Shown: one piece after another, positions 4,444-62,573 of the stretch | Position numbering within the stretch: position 1 is the first letter of the stretch | Layout: the number at the start of each line of letters is the position of its first letter | From: Armatimonadota bacterium | GTDB lineage: Bacteria > Armatimonadota > Armatimonadia > Armatimonadales > Armatimonadaceae | Length of the DNA: 64,000 nucleotides | Assembly (NCBI GenBank): GCA_026392155.1 | Contig: JAPLCP010000079.1 | Coordinates: forward strand, 75,618-139,617 | Reading direction: 5' to 3' | Translations under genes and position numbers: made by a program | Notes under the pieces: model-generated | Told to the model about the DNA's origin: nothing | The model's database searches: none | The model's input: the letters and a program-made list of their open reading frames with translations, nothing else

Positions 4444-6532
4444 TTCCGAGCTAGCCCCGAAAACTCAGGAGGGCTCGCTGCCACTCCAGCTTGCCGCCCT
4501 TCTGGGGCAGAGCCTTGCTCTTTACGCCCTTGCCTCTCCGATCATCAGTATCGGCTACACAATGTTCTTGGTATTGTTGGGGGTGGTCGGGCTCTTCACC
4601 GCCCGTGCCGTTCAGCGCAGAGAAGGAGGCAGCGCACTCTTACTTCCGGGTGCGATTGGGATGATAGCAACATTTTTCGTGGTTCAGTTCCTTGTGCTGC
4701 GCTTTCGAAATGTGCTCCCCCTAGACTTCGCTCTCACGAGTGCCGACACCAGCCTGATCATGGCTCTGACCTTTACGGCTACCCTCGCGATATTCTTCTG
4801 GCTTACCGACTCTGCGACGCTTTTTTCGTGTGTCTGGTCTATGGCCATGTCCGGACTTGCCGCCACGATCAACCTGAACGTCATCACGATTGTCTGCTTT
4901 GGGGCCTACTTGCTCTGTGCGCTCTTTCTGCTGGTGCACCACCACACGCTGGCGCAGGCAGGGGCTATCGGGCGGCGACAGGTCACCTCAGGCTCCCTGC
5001 TTCTGCTCCAAGTGCGGACGGCGGCGCTGCTGTGGCTCCTGACCTTTGTTCTGGGCTGCGTAGTCGCGATTCCGCTTCAGATGATCGGGCGCAATATGTC
5101 TCTGGAGCGGGTGCTGGAGCGCTTGAAAGTCTCTCACGAGCAGAAGCGCCTCCAGGGAGCCAAGCAGCTACGAAACTTTGAGAGTGCACGGGAGTTTGCC
5201 GTCGGACTGGGGCCGGTCACCGATGACGATACCCTGCTCTACCGGGTCAAGGTCTCACGTCCCTACTACTGGCGCATTAGCACCTTCGCAACGCTCCAAG
5301 GCAACCTCTGGGTTCCCTACGCCGCGGATCTTGATGGGGAGGCACTTGCTCCCCAGAGTAGGGCCAGTAGCCAGAGCCTCTTCACCTTCTCACCCGGTGT
5401 GGAAGGTTCACGAGCAAAAACGGAGCCGGTTCAGGTCATGGTCGAGCCACTAGTCTCCCTACGCGGCCTGTGCCATATCGCCGAGCCACGGGAGCTTCGC
5501 ACCGACCTGCCCACGATCATTCGCCGGGTAGATGGCACTCTGGGAATGATCCGTAACCAGCTTGACATGGCTCCCCCGCTCACGGCATACTCCCTGACCT
5601 GTGATGTCTCCATTGCGACATCGCAGGAGCTGAATAACTCCTCACGTCGCTATCCCAAGGAGATCCAGGATCGGTATCTCCAAGACCCAAATCCCACTCT
5701 CTTAGACGAGCTGGCACGCACGGCGATTGGAGCGACCAAAGGCCCCTTTGACCAAGCGGAGGCCATCCGACAGTTTGTGGCGAACCGGTGTATCTACTCA
5801 CTAGATGCCCCCGCGTGCCCTCTGGGACGGAACCCGGCGGAGTGGTTTCTCAATGAGTCCAAGGTCGGCTACTGTGACCTCTACGCGACATCGGTGACGA
5901 TGCTCTGCCGCGCGGCAGGCATCCCGGCACGCATTGCGACGGGCTTCAATGCTGGGGAAGTAGACCCCGATCATCCGTCTTCCTACCACCTTCGAGAGCG
6001 CAATCGCCACGCCTGGTGCGAAGTGTTTTTTACTGGCTACGGCTGGATTCCCTTTGATGCCACGGCCCTCACCGCAGAAGCGACCTCGATCCCCGTGGCA
6101 AGTCCTCCCAGCACTAAGGCCAAGACTGCGAACATCTCCCCTGGCCCCCTTGCGCTGGCAGGCATTGCCGTACTTGGGCTACTCGCGGTGGGCGGCAACG
6201 AACTCTACCAGCGGCGGCGCGGTGTTCGTCCAGGGCAAAGCCAGACCTCGCCGGAAGAGATCTTTGCGCGACGTGTTCTGGCAACCTACCGTAGCGCTCT
6301 GCACCAGCTCAAGCGCCACGGCGCCATGCGAGAGAGCACGATGACGATCGGGGAGCACACCCAGCTTGTCCAGAAACGACTTGGTAGCAGCGTGGGAAAA
6401 CACTACGAGCGGCTTGCCAAGCTCAGCGAGCGTGCCCTTTTTGCCCAGCAGGCACTCCAAGAAAAGGATGTGAGCCTTGCACAAGAGGCCCTGCGCGAGC
6501 TCAATACGAACCTGAAAGAGAGAAAACACTAG
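4415..6532 (+). CDS. TgpA-like membrane protein with transglutaminase-like domain
   Basis: Multiple TM helices then GYCDLYATSVTMLCRAAGIPARIATGFNAGE...RNRHAWCEVFFTGYGWIPFDAT transglutaminase core. Confidence 0.88.
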   Translation: MSQSSVKVASSELAPKTQEGSLPLQLAALLGQSLALYALASPIISIGYTMFLVLLGVVGLFTARAVQRREGGSALLLPGAIGMIATFFVVQFLVLRFRNVLPLDFALTSADTSLIMALTFTATLAIFFWLTDSATLFSCVWSMAMSGLAATINLNVITIVCFGAYLLCALFLLVHHHTLAQAGAIGRRQVTSGSLLLLQVRTAALLWLLTFVLGCVVAIPLQMIGRNMSLERVLERLKVSHEQKRLQGAKQLRNFESAREFAVGLGPVTDDDTLLYRVKVSRPYYWRISTFATLQGNLWVPYAADLDGEALAPQSRASSQSLFTFSPGVEGSRAKTEPVQVMVEPLVSLRGLCHIAEPRELRTDLPTIIRRVDGTLGMIRNQLDMAPPLTAYSLTCDVSIATSQELNNSSRRYPKEIQDRYLQDPNPTLLDELARTAIGATKGPFDQAEAIRQFVANRCIYSLDAPACPLGRNPAEWFLNESKVGYCDLYATSVTMLCRAAGIPARIATGFNAGEVDPDHPSSYHLRERNRHAWCEVFFTGYGWIPFDATALTAEATSIPVASPPSTKAKTANISPGPLALAGIAVLGLLAVGGNELYQRRRGVRPGQSQTSPEEIFARRVLATYRSALHQLKRHGAMRESTMTIGEHTQLVQKRLGSSVGKHYERLAKLSERALFAQQALQEKDVSLAQEALRELNTNLKERKH

Positions 6533-10014: not shown

Positions 10015-10020
10015 CTGGAC

Positions 10021-11181
10021 GTGCAGACGATTCGCATTACCAAAGACGCTGCGCGGGCGTTTCTGATCCGCGCTTTTGCTTTAGAGAGCTGGCAGAGCCT
10101 CCCCGATGTAGACACGGCGATCCAGCGACTAGAGTTTGTGCAGGAGGACTCGATCCCGATCTGTGGGCGGATGCACGAGCTGATTCTGTGGCCTCGCGTG
10201 AAAGACTACGCCCCCGAGAAGCTCGCCGAGGCGCTCTACGGGCCAGACGCCAGCGCTTTTGAGATACACTTCCCCAATCTCGCGGCCCTGCCCCGCGCTG
10301 ACTACCCGCATTTCGTGCGCCGCAAGAAAGCTAGGCAGGCAGAGCCAGGGCGCTGGCAGGGCTTGTTTCCCGAAGAGGAGCCCGTCGCGGCGGCGTTTTT
10401 AAAGGCGCTGGACACTCATGGCCCCCTCTCCACGCGCCGCCATGGCAACGACTTCGGGCACATGCGCTCGGGCTGGGGCACGCAGGCCACGGTGGTTTCG
10501 CAAGTGGCAGAAAAGCTCTGGCTACACGGGACGCTGGGAATTGCGCACCGCAAGAACTTCGAGCGCTACTTCGATAGATTAGAGCGCGTCGCGCCGGATT
10601 TGGCACAGTGGCACCAGAAAGAGTCGTCGGAGCTTCCCGACCTAGAAGAGACGAAGCGCTATCTTGCCCGCAAGCGCCTCAAGGCCAAGGCGCTCTTTCG
10701 ACCAGGGCGCGAGGACAAGGCCACGCTGGGCGAGAGTGCGTTCTGTAAGGTGGAGATCGAGGGCCTCACCAAGCCCTGGTACTGCCTTATCGAAGAGGCT
10801 TCCCTCCTCCCGTTATCGGGAGGAGGGATAGAGGGAGGAGGGCTAGGAGGGCTAAGGCTGCTAGCCCCGCTCGATCCGCTTGTCTACGACCGGCAGCGCA
10901 CTCGGGAGATCTTTGACTTTGACTACACCTGGGAGGTCTATGTCCCGGCGGCAAAGCGCAAGTGGGGCTACTACGTCCTGCCGATTCTGCACGACGGCAA
11001 GCTCATTGGGCGAGTAGATCTCAAGCGCGACACCAAGACCGATTCTCTTCAGGTACTCGCGCTTTTATGGGAGCCTGGCGTTGCGGCCGATTGGGTGATG
11101 CCCCCTACGGAGGAGCGCTTACAGGAGCTGGGGCAGTTCCTTAATGTAAGCCGCATTGACAGAAGACCTACGACCGGGTAA
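10021..11181 (+). CDS. YcaQ-family winged-helix protein (crosslink-repair DNA glycosylase family)
   Basis: MQTIRITKDAARAFLIRAF...IQRLEFVQEDSIPICGRMHELILWPRV and RLLAPLDPLVYDRQRTREIFDFDYTWEVYVPAAKRKWGYYVLPIL; GTG start. Confidence 0.85.
   Translation: MQTIRITKDAARAFLIRAFALESWQSLPDVDTAIQRLEFVQEDSIPICGRMHELILWPRVKDYAPEKLAEALYGPDASAFEIHFPNLAALPRADYPHFVRRKKARQAEPGRWQGLFPEEEPVAAAFLKALDTHGPLSTRRHGNDFGHMRSGWGTQATVVSQVAEKLWLHGTLGIAHRKNFERYFDRLERVAPDLAQWHQKESSELPDLEETKRYLARKRLKAKALFRPGREDKATLGESAFCKVEIEGLTKPWYCLIEEASLLPLSGGGIEGGGLGGLRLLAPLDPLVYDRQRTREIFDFDYTWEVYVPAAKRKWGYYVLPILHDGKLIGRVDLKRDTKTDSLQVLALLWEPGVAADWVMPPTEERLQELGQFLNVSRIDRRPTTG
10801..10828. repeat. palindromic element copy E1 inside YcaQ-like CDS
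   Basis: tccctcctcccg-ttat-cgggaggaggga, perfect 12-bp arms, followed by further gggaggag/ggaggg runs; translated in frame as LLPLSGGGIEGGGLGG. Confidence 0.8.
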
Positions 11182-22250: not shown

Positions 22251-22976
22251 GTGAAAGCTGTAGCCTTGATTCCGGCGCGCCTTGCGGCGACGCGTCTTCC
22301 TGATAAGCCCCTTGCTCTGATTGCGGGCAAGCCGATGATCCAGCATGTCTGGGAGCGGGCTCGGCAGGCATCTCGGATTGACGATGTCTTTATCGCCACG
22401 CCCGACCAGGCCATCGCCGATGCCGTGCGTGCGTTTGGCGGCAGTGTGCTCATGACGCGGGGGGATCATCAGACGGGTACAGATCGCCTCGCCGAGGCCG
22501 CCCAGCAGCTTGCCTCAGAGGTGACCGTGATTGTCAATGTCCAAGGCGATGAGCCTCTGATCGAGCCTGCGACAATAGACGCCGCTGCGGAGCCGCTTCT
22601 GGCAGATGCAAATCTCGCCATGTCGAGCCTCTGCTGCCCGCTCCCCGAGGGGCGTGAGGGCGACCCTAATGTCGTAAAAGTCGTGCTGACCCAGACCGGC
22701 TACGCGCTTTATTTTTCTCGCTCGCCGCTTCCCTACCGTCGCAACGCCGATGCACCGGGCTACCAGCCGCTCCAGCACATCGGGCTCTACGCGTACCGTC
22801 GAGACTTTCTGGAGACCTTCCCCACCCTGCCACGAACGCCCCTAGAGCAGATTGAGTCGCTGGAACAGCTTCGCGCTCTTGAGCACGGCTATCGGATCAA
22901 GATGATCTTCACAAACCGCGCCCCCGAGTCCGTGGACACGCCCGAGGACCTAGAGCGCGTCCGAGCGCTTTTCTAA
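22251..22976 (+). CDS. kdsB: 3-deoxy-manno-octulosonate cytidylyltransferase
   Basis: VKAVALIPARLAATRLPDKPLALIAGKPMIQHVWERA...VIVNVQGDEPLIEP...YALYFSRSPLPYRR...HIGLYAYRRDFL. Confidence 0.96.
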   Translation: MKAVALIPARLAATRLPDKPLALIAGKPMIQHVWERARQASRIDDVFIATPDQAIADAVRAFGGSVLMTRGDHQTGTDRLAEAAQQLASEVTVIVNVQGDEPLIEPATIDAAAEPLLADANLAMSSLCCPLPEGREGDPNVVKVVLTQTGYALYFSRSPLPYRRNADAPGYQPLQHIGLYAYRRDFLETFPTLPRTPLEQIESLEQLRALEHGYRIKMIFTNRAPESVDTPEDLERVRALF

Positions 22977-23813
22977 GCGAGAGCGTAGCCAACGGCCTAC
23001 TGCGCTCAGAGCGAGAGTATCTAGCCCCGTCTCGTAGCCCAGTGTTGCAAGGTGCAAGGCGAGCTTCTCCGTGGCCAGGTTCCCTGCCGCACCGGGAGCA
23101 AATGGGCAGCCGCCGAGTCCTCCCACCGCACCATCAAAGCAAGTCAAGCCAAAACCCAGTGCGACATCAACATGCTCTAGTGCGCGTCCATTGGTGTCAT
23201 GAAAGTGCCCCGCCAGCCGCGATGCAGGCACGCGGGGCAAGATATGCTCTAGCAGCGAGGCGATCTCTTCGGGTACTGCTCTGCCAAGAGTCTCCCCCAG
23301 CGCGACTTCATCGCAGCCCAGCGCCGCGACTTGCTCAATGACTTGTGCGGCTTGCTCGGGTGAAACCTTGCCTTCGTAGGGGCACTGTGTCACTGTGGAG
23401 ACATAGCCCCGCACCCAGCAGCCGTGCTGCCGTGCGGTTTTCACCACGTCGGCATACTCGGTAAGTGAGCTTGCAATGGAGCGCCCGATGTTTTTTTCAC
23501 AGAAGCTCTCGGAGGCCGCCGTGAAGATCGCAATGGCCGTGGCACCAGCCGCGAGTGCTCGCTCCAGCCCTTTCAGATTCGGCACCAGCACCGAGAAACG
23601 GGCCACGGAACGATCCAGCCCCGCCATGACTTCGGTGGCATCGGCGAGCTGAGGGACGAGCTTGGGGTGGACAAAGGCCGTCGCCTCGATCTCCGTACAG
23701 CCTGCCGCGATCAGCTTCTGGATCAGCATCAGCTTCTCTGCTGTCGCCAGTGTAACCGCTTCGTTTTGCAGGCCATCGCGCGGCCCTACCTCGACGATTC
23801 GAATCGCGGTCAT
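22950..23813 (-). CDS. hydroxymethylglutaryl-CoA lyase
   Basis: MTAIRIVEVGPRDGLQNEAVTLATAEKLMLIQKLIAAGCTEIEATAFVHPKLVPQLADA...GLGGCPFAPGAAGNLATE; start corrected from the ORF track. Confidence 0.95.
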   Translation of the reverse strand: MTAIRIVEVGPRDGLQNEAVTLATAEKLMLIQKLIAAGCTEIEATAFVHPKLVPQLADATEVMAGLDRSVARFSVLVPNLKGLERALAAGATAIAIFTAASESFCEKNIGRSIASSLTEYADVVKTARQHGCWVRGYVSTVTQCPYEGKVSPEQAAQVIEQVAALGCDEVALGETLGRAVPEEIASLLEHILPRVPASRLAGHFHDTNGRALEHVDVALGFGLTCFDGAVGGLGGCPFAPGAAGNLATEKLALHLATLGYETGLDTLALSAVGRWLRSRLEKRSDAL

Positions 23814-24253
23814 GCCTTCTCTAGCTCCACCAGAGTCGCGCCGTGCTCCACCCGATCGCCCGGAGCAGCGTGAACTGCGCTCACCGTGCCGGCAAACGGA
23901 GCCTCCAAGGTCGCCATCACCTTCATCGCCTCCATGACCGCCAGTGGCTGGTAGGCTTTGACACTCTGACCAACGACGACATGCACGGCGCGGACGATCC
24001 CCGCCATCGGGGCGGAGAGGCTCCCAGCTTTTTGCCGAGCAGCAGCACGCCGACCCTGCGCGGGTTGAAAGCGCCACGTGTGTCCATCAAGCCCCAGAAA
24101 GACCTCGCCGCGCTCGCCGTGTGCGACGGTCACCACGGTCACAGAGTCCCCGTCTTGCACCTCAATATCACCGCCTGGCAGTGTCCGAGTGGTAACCGCG
24201 CTGTCGCGCTCAACCTCCCACTCTTGCTGCCCACAGAGCCACTTGGTACTCAT
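23810..24253 (-). CDS. biotin carboxyl carrier protein (BCCP part of a split MccA-type subunit)
   Basis: C-terminal biotinyl motif VMEAMKVMATLEAPFAGTVSAVHAAPGDRVEHGATLVEL; ATGA overlap with upstream biotin carboxylase ORF. Confidence 0.93.
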   Translation of the reverse strand: MSTKWLCGQQEWEVERDSAVTTRTLPGGDIEVQDGDSVTVVTVAHGERGEVFLGLDGHTWRFQPAQGRRAAARQKAGSLSAPMAGIVRAVHVVVGQSVKAYQPLAVMEAMKVMATLEAPFAGTVSAVHAAPGDRVEHGATLVELEKA

Positions 24254-25806
24254 ACGCCGATCCTCCAGCCATCGGTAGCGTGCCAGCCAATACCCTCCTC
24301 CCCCCGCCTCTCCTCCCAATCCTGGGAGGAGGGTGAGAGAGGGGAGTCCGAATCCACCCCTCTGGCTCCCCTCCTTCCTCCCTGCCTCCGCAGGGTTGGG
24401 AGGAGGGGCTGGGGGAGGAGGGCGGCGAGGGCTTGGAGAACCACCTCGGGAATCTCTTGGGCGGGCTTCCAGCCGTTGAAGCGCTCGGTGAGGAAGCCGG
24501 TGTGGAGCTGACCAGCCACAAAGGCTTCGTCGGCGAGGAGAGCACGCAGGTACTCAATATTGGTCTGAACTCCTAGCACCGTAAATCCCGCGAGGGCCTG
24601 ATCGAGCCGGGTAAGAGCAGCCAAGCGATCCGAGCCGGCGCCGATGACTTTGGCGAGCATGGGGTCGTAGTAGGGCGGGACTTCCATCCCCTGCGTGTAG
24701 CCCGAGTCCACCCGCACACCGGGGCCGCTCGGCTCCTGCCAGCGCCGCAAGACCCCAAGCGACGGTAGAAAACCCGTGGCGGGATCTTCGGCGTAGACAC
24801 GTGCCTCAATGGCGTGCCCGCGGGAAAAGATCTCGGATTGCGTGAGAGGAAGCGTCCCGCCCTCGGCGACAGTGAGCTGCCAGCCGACTAAGTCCGTTCC
24901 TGTAATGGTCTCGGTCACCGGGTGCTCCACCTGCAGGCGCGTGTTGACCTCCAGAAAATAAAATGCATCTCCCTCGACAAGAAACTCCACGGTTCCCGCC
25001 CCGACATAGCCGACCGTCTTTCCCGCCAGCACCGCCGCATCCGCCATCTTCTGGCGCAGCTCCGGTGTCAGACCAGGCGCAGGCGACTCCTCGATAATTT
25101 TCTGGTGGCGGCGCTGGATCGAGCACTCACGTTCAAAGAGATGCACGACATTGCCGTGGGTGTCACCAAAGAGCTGGAACTCGACATGGCGTGGCTTTTG
25201 AACATAGCGCTCCAGCAAGACCCGGCCATCGCCAAAGGCGGCAAGGGCTTCGCGGCGCGCCTCGGAGAGCTGGGGTAAAAAGTCACTGAGGTCGTCCACA
25301 CGCCGCATCCCACGCCCACCACCGCCCGCACTGGCCTTGATGAGCAGCGGCGTGCCGATCTTTTCTGCCTCATCGCGTAGCACCGCATCATCCTGGTTGT
25401 CGCCATTGTAGCCCGGCACCACCGGAACCCCGGCGGCGGCCATCGTGCGTTTTGCCCCGATTTTATCCCCGAGTGCCCGAATCACCGCGCCGGGTGGCCC
25501 CACAAAGACAATCCCCGCTGCGGCGCAGGCATCCGCAAAGCCTGCGTTCTCGGACAGAAATCCGTAGCCAGGGTGAACGGCATCTGCATCGTGTGCTCGG
25601 GCGAGCTCCAGAATCTTGTCCGTGCGCAGATAGCTCTCGGTGGCAGGGCCGGGGCCAAGGCAGAAAGCCAGATCGGCAAGCGCGACATGGGGCGCGTCTC
25701 GATCGGCATCGGAGTACACTGCAACCGTCGAGATTCCCCGCTCCCGGCAGGCACGGATGATCCGAACCGCGATCTCCCCTCGGTTGGCAATGAGTAAACG
25801 CTTCAT
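24250..25806 (-). CDS. biotin carboxylase (acyl-CoA/methylcrotonyl-CoA carboxylase alpha, BC part)
   Basis: MKRLLIANRGEIAVRIIRACRERGISTVAVYSDADRDAPHV...GPPGAVIRALGDKIGAKRTM...EVNTRLQVEHPVTE; C-terminus diverges into repeat-derived sequence then ATDGWRIGV. Confidence 0.95.
   Translation of the reverse strand: MKRLLIANRGEIAVRIIRACRERGISTVAVYSDADRDAPHVALADLAFCLGPGPATESYLRTDKILELARAHDADAVHPGYGFLSENAGFADACAAAGIVFVGPPGAVIRALGDKIGAKRTMAAAGVPVVPGYNGDNQDDAVLRDEAEKIGTPLLIKASAGGGGRGMRRVDDLSDFLPQLSEARREALAAFGDGRVLLERYVQKPRHVEFQLFGDTHGNVVHLFERECSIQRRHQKIIEESPAPGLTPELRQKMADAAVLAGKTVGYVGAGTVEFLVEGDAFYFLEVNTRLQVEHPVTETITGTDLVGWQLTVAEGGTLPLTQSEIFSRGHAIEARVYAEDPATGFLPSLGVLRRWQEPSGPGVRVDSGYTQGMEVPPYYDPMLAKVIGAGSDRLAALTRLDQALAGFTVLGVQTNIEYLRALLADEAFVAGQLHTGFLTERFNGWKPAQEIPEVVLQALAALLPQPLLPTLRRQGGRRGARGVDSDSPLSPSSQDWEERRGEEGIGWHATDGWRIGV
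24290..24423. repeat. palindromic element copy E2 inside 3' end of biotin carboxylase gene
   Basis: ataccctcctccccccgcctctcctcccaatcctgggaggagg ... ccgcagggttgggaggaggggctgggggaggaggg; ends are inverted copies of each other; 24290-24346 aligns with 61325-61383 with few differences. Confidence 0.85.
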
Positions 25807-26564
25807 GAGTTGCTCACCCAGCTCGGCTTCCGTTTCTCCAGAAACGCCCGAATCCCCTCTTGACCTTCAGACGATGCTCTGGCCTGCGCGATCGCTCTCA
25901 CCGTGTCTGCGGTGCCTTCGTCTAGCTCCCGGAGAAGTTTCTTCGTCGCGGCGACTGCCTCGGGGCTAAGCCGTAAAAAACTCTCTAGAAGCAGGGGAAG
26001 CTCTTTGCCATAGTCCAGCGCCGCACAGTCAATCAGCCCGATTCGTAAGGCGTGCTCTGGGTTGAAAAGCGTCGCTGTGGTAGCCAAGGCTCGAAGCGCT
26101 CCGGAGCCGATTTTCCGGCGCAGATACGGTGAGATCACGGCAGGAATCAGCCCCAGGCGAACCTCGGTCAGGCCAAAGCGTGCCTCGGGGGCAGCGATAA
26201 CAAAATCACAGGTAGCGATCAGCCCGAGTGCCCCCGCAAAGGCACTGCCATGCACGGCGGCAACCGTGAGCTTGGGACACGCATCTATTGTCTGAAAGAG
26301 CATTTGGAGTTTGCCTGCATCGGCGAGGTTTTCCTCAAAAGAGTAGCCCGCCATCTTTGCCATCCACTCCAGGTCCGCCCCGGCGCAGAAGCTCTTTCCG
26401 GCGCCTTGCAACACAATCACCGCAACCGTGGGGTTTGCCCCCAGTCTCAGAAATGTCTCGGTTAGTTCTGCGATAAGCGGCTCATTAAACGCATTGTGCA
26501 CCTCAGGACGGTTGAGGGTGACATGGGCCACGGGGCCCGAGATAACAGTGAGAATATCGTCCAT
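25803..26564 (-). CDS. enoyl-CoA hydratase/isomerase family (putative methylglutaconyl-CoA hydratase)
   Basis: VTLNRPEVHNAFNEPLIAELTETFLRLG...VIVLQGAGKSFCAGADLEWM; operon context. Confidence 0.92.
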   Translation of the reverse strand: MDDILTVISGPVAHVTLNRPEVHNAFNEPLIAELTETFLRLGANPTVAVIVLQGAGKSFCAGADLEWMAKMAGYSFEENLADAGKLQMLFQTIDACPKLTVAAVHGSAFAGALGLIATCDFVIAAPEARFGLTEVRLGLIPAVISPYLRRKIGSGALRALATTATLFNPEHALRIGLIDCAALDYGKELPLLLESFLRLSPEAVAATKKLLRELDEGTADTVRAIAQARASSEGQEGIRAFLEKRKPSWVSNS

Positions 26565-26567
26565 TGG

Positions 26568-28172
26568 TTACATCCTGAAGACGCCGAAGCGGGTGGGAGC
26601 TTGCGGCGCGTACTGCGCGGCGGCAAGCCCTAAACCGATGGCGCGGCGGGTATGGATCGGGTCGAGAATGCCATCGTCCCAGAGGCGTGCTGTGGCGTAG
26701 TACGGGCTTCCCTCGCGCTCGTACATCGCAATGGTCTCCGCTTCTTCCTCCTGGCTCATCGCATCGCCCTTCACGGTCTTGAGCACCGCCGCCGCCTGCG
26801 GGCCACCCATCACGGAGATTCGGGCGTTCGGCCACATCCAGAGCTGGCGCGGGCCAAAGGCGCGGCCACACATCCCGTAGTTGCCTGCTCCAAACGAGCC
26901 GCCCACAATCACGGTAAACTTCGGAACTTCTGCGCAGCTCACGGCCATCACCAGTTTTGCCCCGTGCTTGGCGATTCCCTCGTGCTCGTAGCGGCTACCG
27001 ACCATAAAGCCGGTGATATTTTGCAAGAAAACCAGCGGAATATTGCGCTGACAGCAAAGCTCGATAAACTGTGCGCCTTTGAGCGCGGACTCTGAGAACA
27101 GCACGCCATTATTGGCGATAATACCGACCGGCCAGCCTTCCCAGTGCGCAAAGCCACAGACGAGGCTCTGGCCGTAGAGTGGCTTGAACTCATGGAACCT
27201 GGAGCCATCCACGAGCCGAGCGATGACTTCGCGGATCTCAAAGGGCTGGCGCAGGTCTTTGGGAAGCAGGCTGTAGAGCTCGTCTGCAGGATAGAGCGGC
27301 TCTTCGGACACTTGTGGCGGCGCGACCCGCGTCTGCGGCAGGTGCGCGACTGCATCCCGCAAGATCGCCAGGGCATCGTCCTCGGTCTCGGCGAGATAGT
27401 CTGCAACCCCCGAGAGCCGTGTGTGGACATCGCCGCCGCCCAGTGCCTCCGCGGTCACTTCCTCGCCCGTCGCGGCCTTCACCAGCGGAGGGCCTGCAAG
27501 AAAGATCGTCCCATTCCCCTTCACAATCACGGTCTGATCGCTCATCGCAGGCACATAGGCTCCTCCCGCCGTGCAGCTTCCCAGCACGGCGGCAAGCTGG
27601 GGAATTCCCAGAGCGCTCATCCGGGCCTGGTTGTAGAAAATCCGCCCGAAGTGCTCTTTATCCGGGAAGACCTCTGCCTGGAGTGGGAGATACGCGCCCC
27701 CCGAGTCCACCAAGTATAGGCACGGAAGGCGGTTCTCTTGTGCAATCTCTTGCAAGCGCAGGTGCTTCTTTACCGTCAGCGGAAAGTACGTCCCACCTTT
27801 TACCGTGGCATCGTTGGCGACAATCGCACAAGGTCGCCCGTGGATTGTCCCGATTCCCGTGACCAGCCCCGCCCCCGGAGCCTGGTCACCGTAGATTCCA
27901 TTGGCAGCCAGGGTAGAGAACTCCAGAAACGGCGCACCAGGGTCGAGTAAGGCGTCTATGCGCTCGCGCGGGAGCTTCTTCTTTCGGGCACGGTGCTTTG
28001 CCACCGACTCCGCACCACCGCCTAGACGCGCTACCGAAAGTCGCGATCTCAGCTCCGCGGCAAGCGCTCGGTTGTGCTCGGCGTTCGCCCGGCACGATGG
28101 TGCATCAGGATCCAGATTGGTATCTAATGTGTCCATGAATACATACCTCTCCTTGGTATCTAATGTGTCCAT
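26568..28172 (-). CDS. acyl-CoA carboxylase carboxyltransferase subunit (methylcrotonyl-CoA carboxylase beta)
   Basis: [50 protein letters not shown]...[60 protein letters not shown]; two candidate starts (28172, 28136). Confidence 0.95.
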
Positions 28173-42983: not shown

Positions 42984-43066
42984 AGTTGTTTTTGTGTTGT
43001 CCCAAACAAACCCAGCCTCCCATCCCCTGTATGCCAGGAGATAGAAGGAAAAAATGACATATTGTT

Positions 43067-43082
43067 CCCCCATCTAAGGGGG
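43067..43082. repeat. small G/C hairpin upstream of secA
   Basis: ccccc-atctaa-ggggg within tgttcccccatctaaggggggcaggggg. Confidence 0.6.
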
Positions 43083-43092
43083 GCAGGGGGCA

Positions 43093-60409: not shown

Positions 60410-61326
60410 TTCCGAGCCCCCCTAGCCCCCGCCCAGCGGGGGGAAAACAACGTTTTTTCCTTATTGTCCCCTCGCGAAGCGGGGGTTAGGGGGGAGGGGC
60501 TTGTTTTGTACACATTGTCCGCCGCGAGCTTGCGCACTTGGGCCACCCCGTCGCGGCCCTTGAGCACCCGCGCCACCAGCAACGCAAGCGGCAACGGCAA
60601 GGCCAGCGACTTTCCCCCCAGCGCACTCACGATCTCTCGGAGTGTATAGGGCGCGGCATCCGCGATCACGAAGCGCTTCCCTGCCACTGCCATCGAGCCC
60701 AGACGCGCCACGGTAATCGCTGCAGCCGCCGCGTTCTCGACAGCGCAGAGCGTTTTCTTATTCTTCCCATCGCCGGGAATAAAGAACCGCCCCGCCTTTA
60801 TCGCTGCCTCCAGCTTGGCGATATTTCCTCGGTCGCGCGGCCCGTAGACCGTCGCCAGGCGCAAGTGTACGGCAATCGCGCCGACATCATCGGCCCAGCG
60901 GTCAATCAGCTTCTCCGCTGCGAGCTTCGAGGCCGCGTAAGGAGTCGCAGGTGCAGGCGGCGTGTCTTCGGCGATCCCCGTTCGCGGCGTGCTCTCGCCG
61001 TAGACTGCGACTGTCGAGAAGAACACAAAGCGCGGCGGGCGCTCGGGGTTGCAGGCATCGAGGAGCTGGCCCGTGAAGCCGACATTGACCTTCTGGTACT
61101 CCTCTTTCGTCGCCGTGGGCTGGTGCACCAGTGCGACGCAGTGGAAGATCACATCGGCATCTACGCAGCAAGAGAGGTCGTTAACAAAGCGCACGACGCC
61201 CTCGGGTAGCTCGGCGTCGGCTCGGCGCACTAGGCCACGGACTTCGCGAAAGCCCCCGTCGGCCAGCAGCGCCTCACAGAGCGCGTAGCCGACACAGCCG
61301 TTGGCTCCGGTGACGAGGGCGATCAT
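60406..61326 (-). CDS. NAD-dependent epimerase/dehydratase
   Basis: MIALVTGANGCVGYALCEALLADGGFREVRGLVRR...PYAASKLAAEKLIDRW; likely start MIALVTG at about 61326; ORF-track start 61407 is repeat-derived. Confidence 0.92.
   Translation of the reverse strand: MIALVTGANGCVGYALCEALLADGGFREVRGLVRRADAELPEGVVRFVNDLSCCVDADVIFHCVALVHQPTATKEEYQKVNVGFTGQLLDACNPERPPRFVFFSTVAVYGESTPRTGIAEDTPPAPATPYAASKLAAEKLIDRWADDVGAIAVHLRLATVYGPRDRGNIAKLEAAIKAGRFFIPGDGKNKKTLCAVENAAAAAITVARLGSMAVAGKRFVIADAAPYTLREIVSALGGKSLALPLPLALLVARVLKGRDGVAQVRKLAADNVYKTSPSPLTPASRGDNKEKTLFSPRWAGARGARK
60416..60501. repeat. palindromic element copy E7 at 3' end of epimerase gene
   Basis: gcccccctagcccccgc ... gcgggggttaggggggaggggc; read as C-terminal SPSPLTPASRGDNKEKTLFSPRWAGARGARK. 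Confidence 0.75.
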
Positions 61327-62573
61327 ACCCTCCTCCCCCGGCCCCTCCTCCCAACCCTGGGAGGAGGTTGGGAGTGAGGGGAGATTTTGTTGTAGATTTC
61401 CAGCCACTCGGCGACGCAGACGGGGCGGGAGTAGTGCTCAATCATTTTCTGTCGGCCTGCTCGGCCTAATTTTTGTCTTTCCGGTTCCGTATGAGCCAGG
61501 AGCTGCAAAATTGCCTGCGCAATATCTGTCCCGTTTCCTCCGAACAACACTTGCCACCAAGGCACGCTAGAAGCTCGCCTCCAGCGGGGATTCCACCACA
61601 TCAAGCCATTAAGCAAGTCGGCACACCCTCGAATATTCAGCGCTACCACCGGAATTTCCATAGAAAGAGCTTCCTGCACAGCACAAGGCAAACCTTCCTG
61701 CAAAGAAGAAAAGACAAAAATGTTACTAGCAGCCAGAATCTGTTTAGTATCTCGGCGAAAACCGACTAGGCGAACCACTCCTTCCAGTCCATATTTTGAA
61801 ATGGTTTGTTGCAACTCCGGTTCAAGAATTCCGTCTCCAACAATCACACAACAAAAATCATGGTGGTGCATCGTCACCTGTTTAAGCGCCTCAAGAAGCA
61901 TCCTGTGCCCCTTTCGCGGAATCAGCTCCCCGATGGTAGAAATCAAAATTCCATCTTCAGGTACTCCCAACTCATCGCGGATTTTCTGACGTTCTTCGGT
62001 CGTAACTGTCGCGGGATCGAACTCATCGGTGGAGACGCCGACGCCGTGGGTGAAGTAGACGCGCTCGGGGGGCATGAGCTTCTTGGCTTCTTCAAAGTCC
62101 CACTGGTTGATCGTGAGCACCGCATCGGAGAGGAAGCGCCCGGCAAAGCTCTCGATGGCGCGATAGAGCGCATTGCTGAGCCTGCCACCGAGTGGGTGAA
62201 AATGAAAACCGTGCGCGGTGTAGACGCGCTTCAGCCCCCCCCGCCCCCGAGTTTGGGGGAGCCAGTGTTTCGCCAAAGTGGCGGCGAGCCGCCCATAAAA
62301 CCCGCCGCTGGGGTTGTGGCAGTGGACGATATCGGGCCGGAGCTTGCGGATAAGCTTGACAAGCTGGACGAGCGCCAGCATGTTCCTCGGATCGAGTGGG
62401 TTGCGCTGGATCGGGACGTGGTGCAGACCGTCCGCATGGGCCGCGACATCGTCCTTGAAGCGTGTGAACTGGCAGGCGACATGGGTCTCGTAGCCCGCCG
62501 CCTTTGCGCCGTCGAGGTGCGGCAGCATGACGCGGACGATGTGATCCAGGGTCGAGACGTAGAGGAGTTTCAT
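61323..62573 (-). CDS. glycosyltransferase family 4 protein
   Basis: MKLLYVSTLDHIVRVMLPHLDGAKAAGYETHVACQ...KRVYTAHGFHFHPLGG...FVFSSLQEGLPCAVQEALSMEIPVVALNIRGCADLLNG. Confidence 0.92.
   Translation of the reverse strand: MKLLYVSTLDHIVRVMLPHLDGAKAAGYETHVACQFTRFKDDVAAHADGLHHVPIQRNPLDPRNMLALVQLVKLIRKLRPDIVHCHNPSGGFYGRLAATLAKHWLPQTRGRGGLKRVYTAHGFHFHPLGGRLSNALYRAIESFAGRFLSDAVLTINQWDFEEAKKLMPPERVYFTHGVGVSTDEFDPATVTTEERQKIRDELGVPEDGILISTIGELIPRKGHRMLLEALKQVTMHHHDFCCVIVGDGILEPELQQTISKYGLEGVVRLVGFRRDTKQILAASNIFVFSSLQEGLPCAVQEALSMEIPVVALNIRGCADLLNGLMWWNPRWRRASSVPWWQVLFGGNGTDIAQAILQLLAHTEPERQKLGRAGRQKMIEHYSRPVCVAEWLEIYNKISPHSQPPPRVGRRGRGRRV
61325..61383. repeat. palindromic element copy E8 shared by GT 3' end and epimerase 5' end
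   Basis: ataccctcctcccccggcccctcctcccaaccctgggaggaggttgggagtgaggggag; near-identical to 24290-24346. Confidence 0.85.

Follow-up and report, generated by a model that had tools for sequence, protein, structure and literature searches.

Does the long palindrome near the end of a biotin carboxylase (BC) gene in this Armatimonadota bacterium mark the point at which a once fused carboxylase subunit was broken into BC and BCCP, or is it a later arrival in genes that were separate already? The first-pass annotation of the window, i.e. the entire 64,000-nucleotide stretch of DNA under analysis, proposed the former. We consider the latter highly likely: a non-autonomous, mobile-like and species-specific palindrome inserted in frame into a permissive linker of an already separate BC.

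The BC/BCCP operon and its palindrome

The genes in question belong to a cluster of leucine-degradation type, encoded on the minus strand. A carboxyltransferase subunit of an acyl-CoA (methylcrotonyl-type) carboxylase (26568..28172, ORF and Pfam) and an enoyl-CoA hydratase (ECH, 25803..26564, ORF and Pfam) are followed by BC, a standalone protein of 518 aa (24250..25806, Pfam; PDB match to MCC alpha, 3u9s), a separate BCCP of 147 aa with an AMKM biotinylation motif (23810..24253, Pfam biotinyl domain) and an HMG-CoA lyase-like gene (22974..23813, Pfam). BCCP, for which a genome search returned one convincing copy, thus clusters with its MKM motif together with the carboxyltransferase and BC. 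The BC stop and the BCCP start share an ATGA at 24250-24253, as previously annotated. The same overlap is observed at all three junctions of the series ECH/BC/BCCP/HMG-CoA lyase, i.e. also where the ECH stop meets the BC start (25803-25806) and where the BCCP stop meets the HMG-CoA lyase start (23810-23813). The ATGA between BC and BCCP is therefore attributed to normal operon packing rather than to a scar.

The palindrome occupies positions 24293..24422 within the C-terminal linker of BC, where the first-pass annotation had placed such an element, and belongs to a dispersed repeat, hereafter family 1. Its 130 bp comprise two inverted REP-like arms flanking a variable centre and encode BC residues ~462-505. 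It is near-perfect, with arms at 24293-24324 and 24391-24422 (32 nt, 91% complementary, repeat search), and folds end to end with -106.8 kcal/mol (z = -7.1; none of 200 shuffled sequences folded as well). Translation of the minus-strand ORF confirmed that BC enters repeat-derived residues and that the frame resumes afterwards, terminating in GWHATDGWRIGV before the stop. Compared with the BC of G001, a relative of the same genus, the element replaces a linker of ~15 residues between ALxAL and GWxATDxWR. As the stop falls at nearly the same place as in G001, the frame break postulated between BC and BCCP does not exist.

The very high stability of the hairpin, which ends ~40 nt before BCCP begins, could be read as the signature of a functional RNA that adjusts the ratio of BC to BCCP, e.g. 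by slowing ribosomes or blocking RNases just ahead of the BCCP start. We regard this as unlikely, given that the same repeat resides within unrelated genes, that the operon of relatives lacks the element, and that no Rfam family reaches the gathering score for the palindrome. The Rfam matches were all below threshold and to microRNA models only, as expected of a long hairpin, and assignment to a known RNA family was rejected on these grounds. A phage origin was likewise rejected, as no DNA similar to the palindrome was found in phage records.

A foreign stretch of this size might also signal a decaying pseudogene. This reading is very improbable: the core Pfam domains of BC are complete, columns invariant among relatives are retained, the frame stays open across the insert and beyond, and the GW.ATD.WR segment at the C-terminus is conserved behind it. 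AlphaFold2 modelled the core with pLDDT mostly >90 and tail residues 465-518 with values <50, which are partly due to the few homologues that cover the tail. The model fits, if it does not prove, a tail that is probably disordered along its element-derived stretch.

Separation of BC and BCCP in related genomes

The BC of G001 is 79% identical and carries no family-1 element; its C-terminus is given as GWLATDHWRNTK, also as LSALGQPPPSRAAEKPRQTGWLATDHWRNTK, directly before the stop. The gene order in G001 is BC, thioesterase-like gene, BCCP, the intervening acyl-CoA thioesterase-like gene being located at 5286-5834 on the minus strand of locus L281. Two further genomes of the phylum (G039 and G025) encode BC and BCCP as neighbouring but separate ORFs, again without the element. 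Thus, the observation that the first-pass annotation itself had named as decisive against its model, the same split in close relatives devoid of the element, was looked for and found.

This pattern extends well beyond the phylum. The 23 BC relatives examined represent Chloroflexi, deltaproteobacterial lineages, Armatimonadetes, archaea and other groups. The majority are standalone proteins of about 495 residues that usually end in PW..GxWR or a variant thereof, and in others a fused biotinyl domain continues past the same motif. A separate BCCP ORF was found downstream of standalone BC in 8 of 15 related loci. The BC described here contains no biotinyl domain and ends after its W..WR motif, whereas a fused MccA/LiuD subunit would combine BC, BT and BCCP in one polypeptide. 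Judged by these comparisons of gene sequences, the separation of BC and BCCP is ancestral and predates the element.

The model in which the element and a frame break turned a fused BC-BT-BCCP gene into two coupled or frameshifted ORFs drew on the ATGA overlap and on a DGWR segment, which indeed matches the linker of a fused MccA-type subunit (L128, SPWFTAGAWRAN) but also forms the usual C-terminus of standalone BC proteins; with BC and BCCP divided at this very residue in element-free relatives (G001, G039, G025; many phyla), one gene separating BC and BCCP in G001, ATGA at neighbouring junctions as well and no slippery site on inspection by eye, it is hardly credible, and the element was rejected as cause of the split. 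Compared to standalone BC + BCCP carboxylases, the system is alike in that BC ends at the conserved PW..GxWR segment, the ORF for BCCP follows directly or lies close by and the carboxyltransferase belongs to the same cluster, the sole difference being the element in the linker. With fused MCC alpha (3u9s, the best homologue of the BC core with a solved structure) it shares a homologous linker motif, although here BC and BCCP are distinct polypeptides.

A dispersed palindrome family

Family 1 is a dispersed, species-specific palindrome of REP/MITE-like character. In the genome of this bacterium (G000, 4.77 Mb in 228 contigs) a 161-bp query gave at least 84 BLAST matches on both strands, with 40 of 180 candidates scored. 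A profile applied to 60 fetched loci and the window resolved at least 70 distinct copies, which is probably a lower bound, as loci were picked by an exact 13-mer and part of the listed places was fetched; both counts rest on searches and fetched loci of this one genome. The long copies (32; 98-190 bp) mostly consist of two inverted arms, the shorter ones (38) mostly of a single arm. The profile search located two single-arm copies elsewhere in the window, one in frame in an AlkZ-like DNA glycosylase gene (10799..10842, plus strand; ORF 10015-11178) and another at 61328..61397. A search of 14 related genomes for family 1 revealed nothing but one weak 47-bp match in G001.

Most copies are extragenic, with 53 of 70 not called in-gene. 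At loci L069, L106, L120, L125, L080 and L074, a copy separates two coding stretches that share a strand but not a phase. Here the element probably extends the C-termini of adjacent operon genes, disrupted genes being the less likely alternative. The family-1 sequence is very rich in C, then G, and poor in stops. On average, the long copies have 4.44 of six frames open inside genes and 4.35 outside; selection for stop-free copies in genes is not seen in these near-equal values, and read-through looks built in rather than selected later.

In-frame copies in protein genes

At least 17 family-1 copies reside in 16 genes, one frame being kept open throughout. The host genes encode BC, TrpC, HemD, ArgS, DNA polymerase I (polA), QueG, GlgB, lipoyl E2, an AlkZ-like protein, an amylo-1,6-glucosidase-like protein (AGL), a McrB-like ATPase (two copies), a GH20-like protein, a prenyltransferase-like protein (Pren), a YVTN/phosphoesterase protein, RNase HII and a DUF1501 protein; AGL and Pren are labels by general resemblance, as Pfam gives neither a family, and RNase HII is the weakest case, its N-terminal copy being one that could precede the true start. 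The two copies in the McrB-like gene lie at 2017-2078 and 2183-2235 of locus L126. Most in-gene copies have coding support on either side, with known domains flanking or spanning the element. The inserts are read in three frames in different genes, resulting in three kinds of peptide (PSSPSPSSQSWEEG, LLPLPLLPILGG and PPPAPPPNPGRRG).

Alignments with G001 and, where available, G003, G006, G007, G012 and G014 place the inserts mostly in variable loops or linkers. At the TrpC, HemD, AGL, E2, Pren and YVTN sites the relatives have short variable loops, and these six proteins as well as BC show a large net gain in length. The net gain is small in ArgS, GlgB, PolA and McrB, where a single arm took the place of the native linker; at the AlkZ site, the longer stretch is that of G001. 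The Pfam domain of HemD spans the insert, and in ArgS the insert is located between the catalytic and anticodon-binding domains, with solved synthetases aligning on both sides. No second close copy was found in the genome for any of the seven genes tested (ArgS, PolA, TrpC, HemD, QueG, GlgB and E2), so the cell presumably relies on the interrupted copy. Several of the interrupted single-copy genes are normally essential.

Insertion sites shared between species

A second palindrome family (CCCCCTAACCCCCGC...GCGGGGG..., ~79 bp) is common to this genome and G001 and mostly intergenic (26 loci checked). The window contains one copy at 60418..60493 and a weak match at 43016-43090. What is unusual is the occurrence of four different palindrome sequences at one and the same QueG loop, directly before ARYARGxDYH, in four related species (loci L091, L282, L270/L311 and L308/L273), together with several other sites common to G001. 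The QueG loop holds family 1 in the genome studied here, family 2 in G001, two CCCCTCTCCCGCTGCGGGAGAGGGG hairpins separated by 112 bp in G006, and in G003 a long palindrome that has CCCCCGCCCCCTTCGGGGG ends and coincides with breaks between the G003 contigs; the G006 and G003 palindromes are known from the QueG locus alone. No palindrome was found in the QueG loop of G007, G012 and G014. At the DUF1501, AGL, AlkZ and YVTN sites, G001 has hairpins that are stronger than those elsewhere in the respective gene (p about 0.005-0.007 per site, with no correction for the 28 tests). The hairpin at the DUF1501 site is family 2, and that at the AlkZ site differs from the family-1 arm present here. Certain protein loops might represent standing niches that are repeatedly colonised by unrelated palindrome families, insertion being targeted to or swapped at existing palindromes, an explanation that we offer tentatively and with some doubt. 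Loop tolerance may be enough to explain the shared sites.

Termini, mobility and comparison with known repeats

The ends of family 1 read TACCCTCCTCCCC. According to the flank table, a T is found at -2 in 29 of 56 cases and an A at -1 in 32 of 56, so that TA precedes the ends in about half of the cases, and a terminal GTAG or CGTC tetranucleotide is absent. There is no clear target-site duplication (flanks agree over 2 bp in 4 of 32 cases and never over 4 bp or more). Relative to G001, most sites show sequence that was replaced rather than cleanly added, and simple cut-and-paste is thus not demonstrated. Still, we infer that family 1 moves or has moved. RAYT-like (Y1_Tnp) genes are present at three loci of the genome, but no family-1 copy was found in the 5-6.5 kb regions fetched around them; RAYT is thus at most a candidate for the mobilising enzyme. 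Near the RAYT-like gene of locus L278 (contig C123), a family-2 palindrome is located about 1.8 kb away.

By analogy, family 1 resembles Rickettsia palindromic elements (RPEs) and intragenic REPs, here in a new phylum. RPEs are palindromes of 100-150 bp with many dispersed copies (Ogata et al. 2000, as reviewed in PMC10969869, PMC2229807), a sizeable minority of which is fused in frame into unrelated conserved genes and apparently tolerated by the host proteins (PMC10969869, PMC2229807). Family 1 is similar in size (~100-150 bp), copy number, dispersal and in-frame location within unrelated conserved protein genes. Conversely, its host has a 4.8-Mb Armatimonadota genome and is neither Rickettsia nor Wolbachia, its sequence is extremely GC-rich, and it is read in several frames whereas RPEs, compared by description, yield one conserved peptide. 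Intragenic REPs are GTAG/CGTC palindromes of 20-40 bp; REPs are mostly extragenic and some are intragenic, with DNA polymerase I and tRNA synthetases among the tagged genes (PMC3733652). Family 1 likewise forms hairpins, single or as inverted dimers, mostly outside and sometimes within genes, but its arms are longer (42-70 bp compared to 20-40 bp, PMC3733652), its ends are devoid of the GTAG/CGTC tag, and no copy lies beside RAYT-like genes. MITE-like are the terminal inverted repeats with TA ends, in contrast to the missing target-site duplication. A literature search on palindromic repeats in Armatimonadota, incomplete in coverage, returned nothing relevant by title or abstract.

Implications

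In the preferred reading, i.e. in-frame insertion into a linker of an already separate BC, the GC-rich and stop-poor repeat would be open in most frames, and copies would survive if they landed in a loop or linker and altered the net length by a multiple of three. Insertion into BC would have exchanged a linker of ~15 residues for a probably disordered stretch of ~43 residues rich in Pro, Leu, Gly and Arg, with the catalytic core and the final W..WR residues left untouched. BCCP would be made separately from its own start, ATGA-coupled like its operon neighbours. The element-bearing BC is presumably active, and its insert roughly neutral.

Palindromes that lie in frame within protein genes are familiar chiefly from intracellular bacteria with reduced genomes, besides isolated examples among REPs. 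The genome studied here, of ordinary size and from another phylum, has at least 17 such inserts in conserved genes. The existence of a comparable relative with shared sites allows for testing whether such inserts are tolerated or aimed at loops, and the family-1 inserts provide a naturally occurring collection of enzymes, themselves well understood, that carry insertions in their loops.
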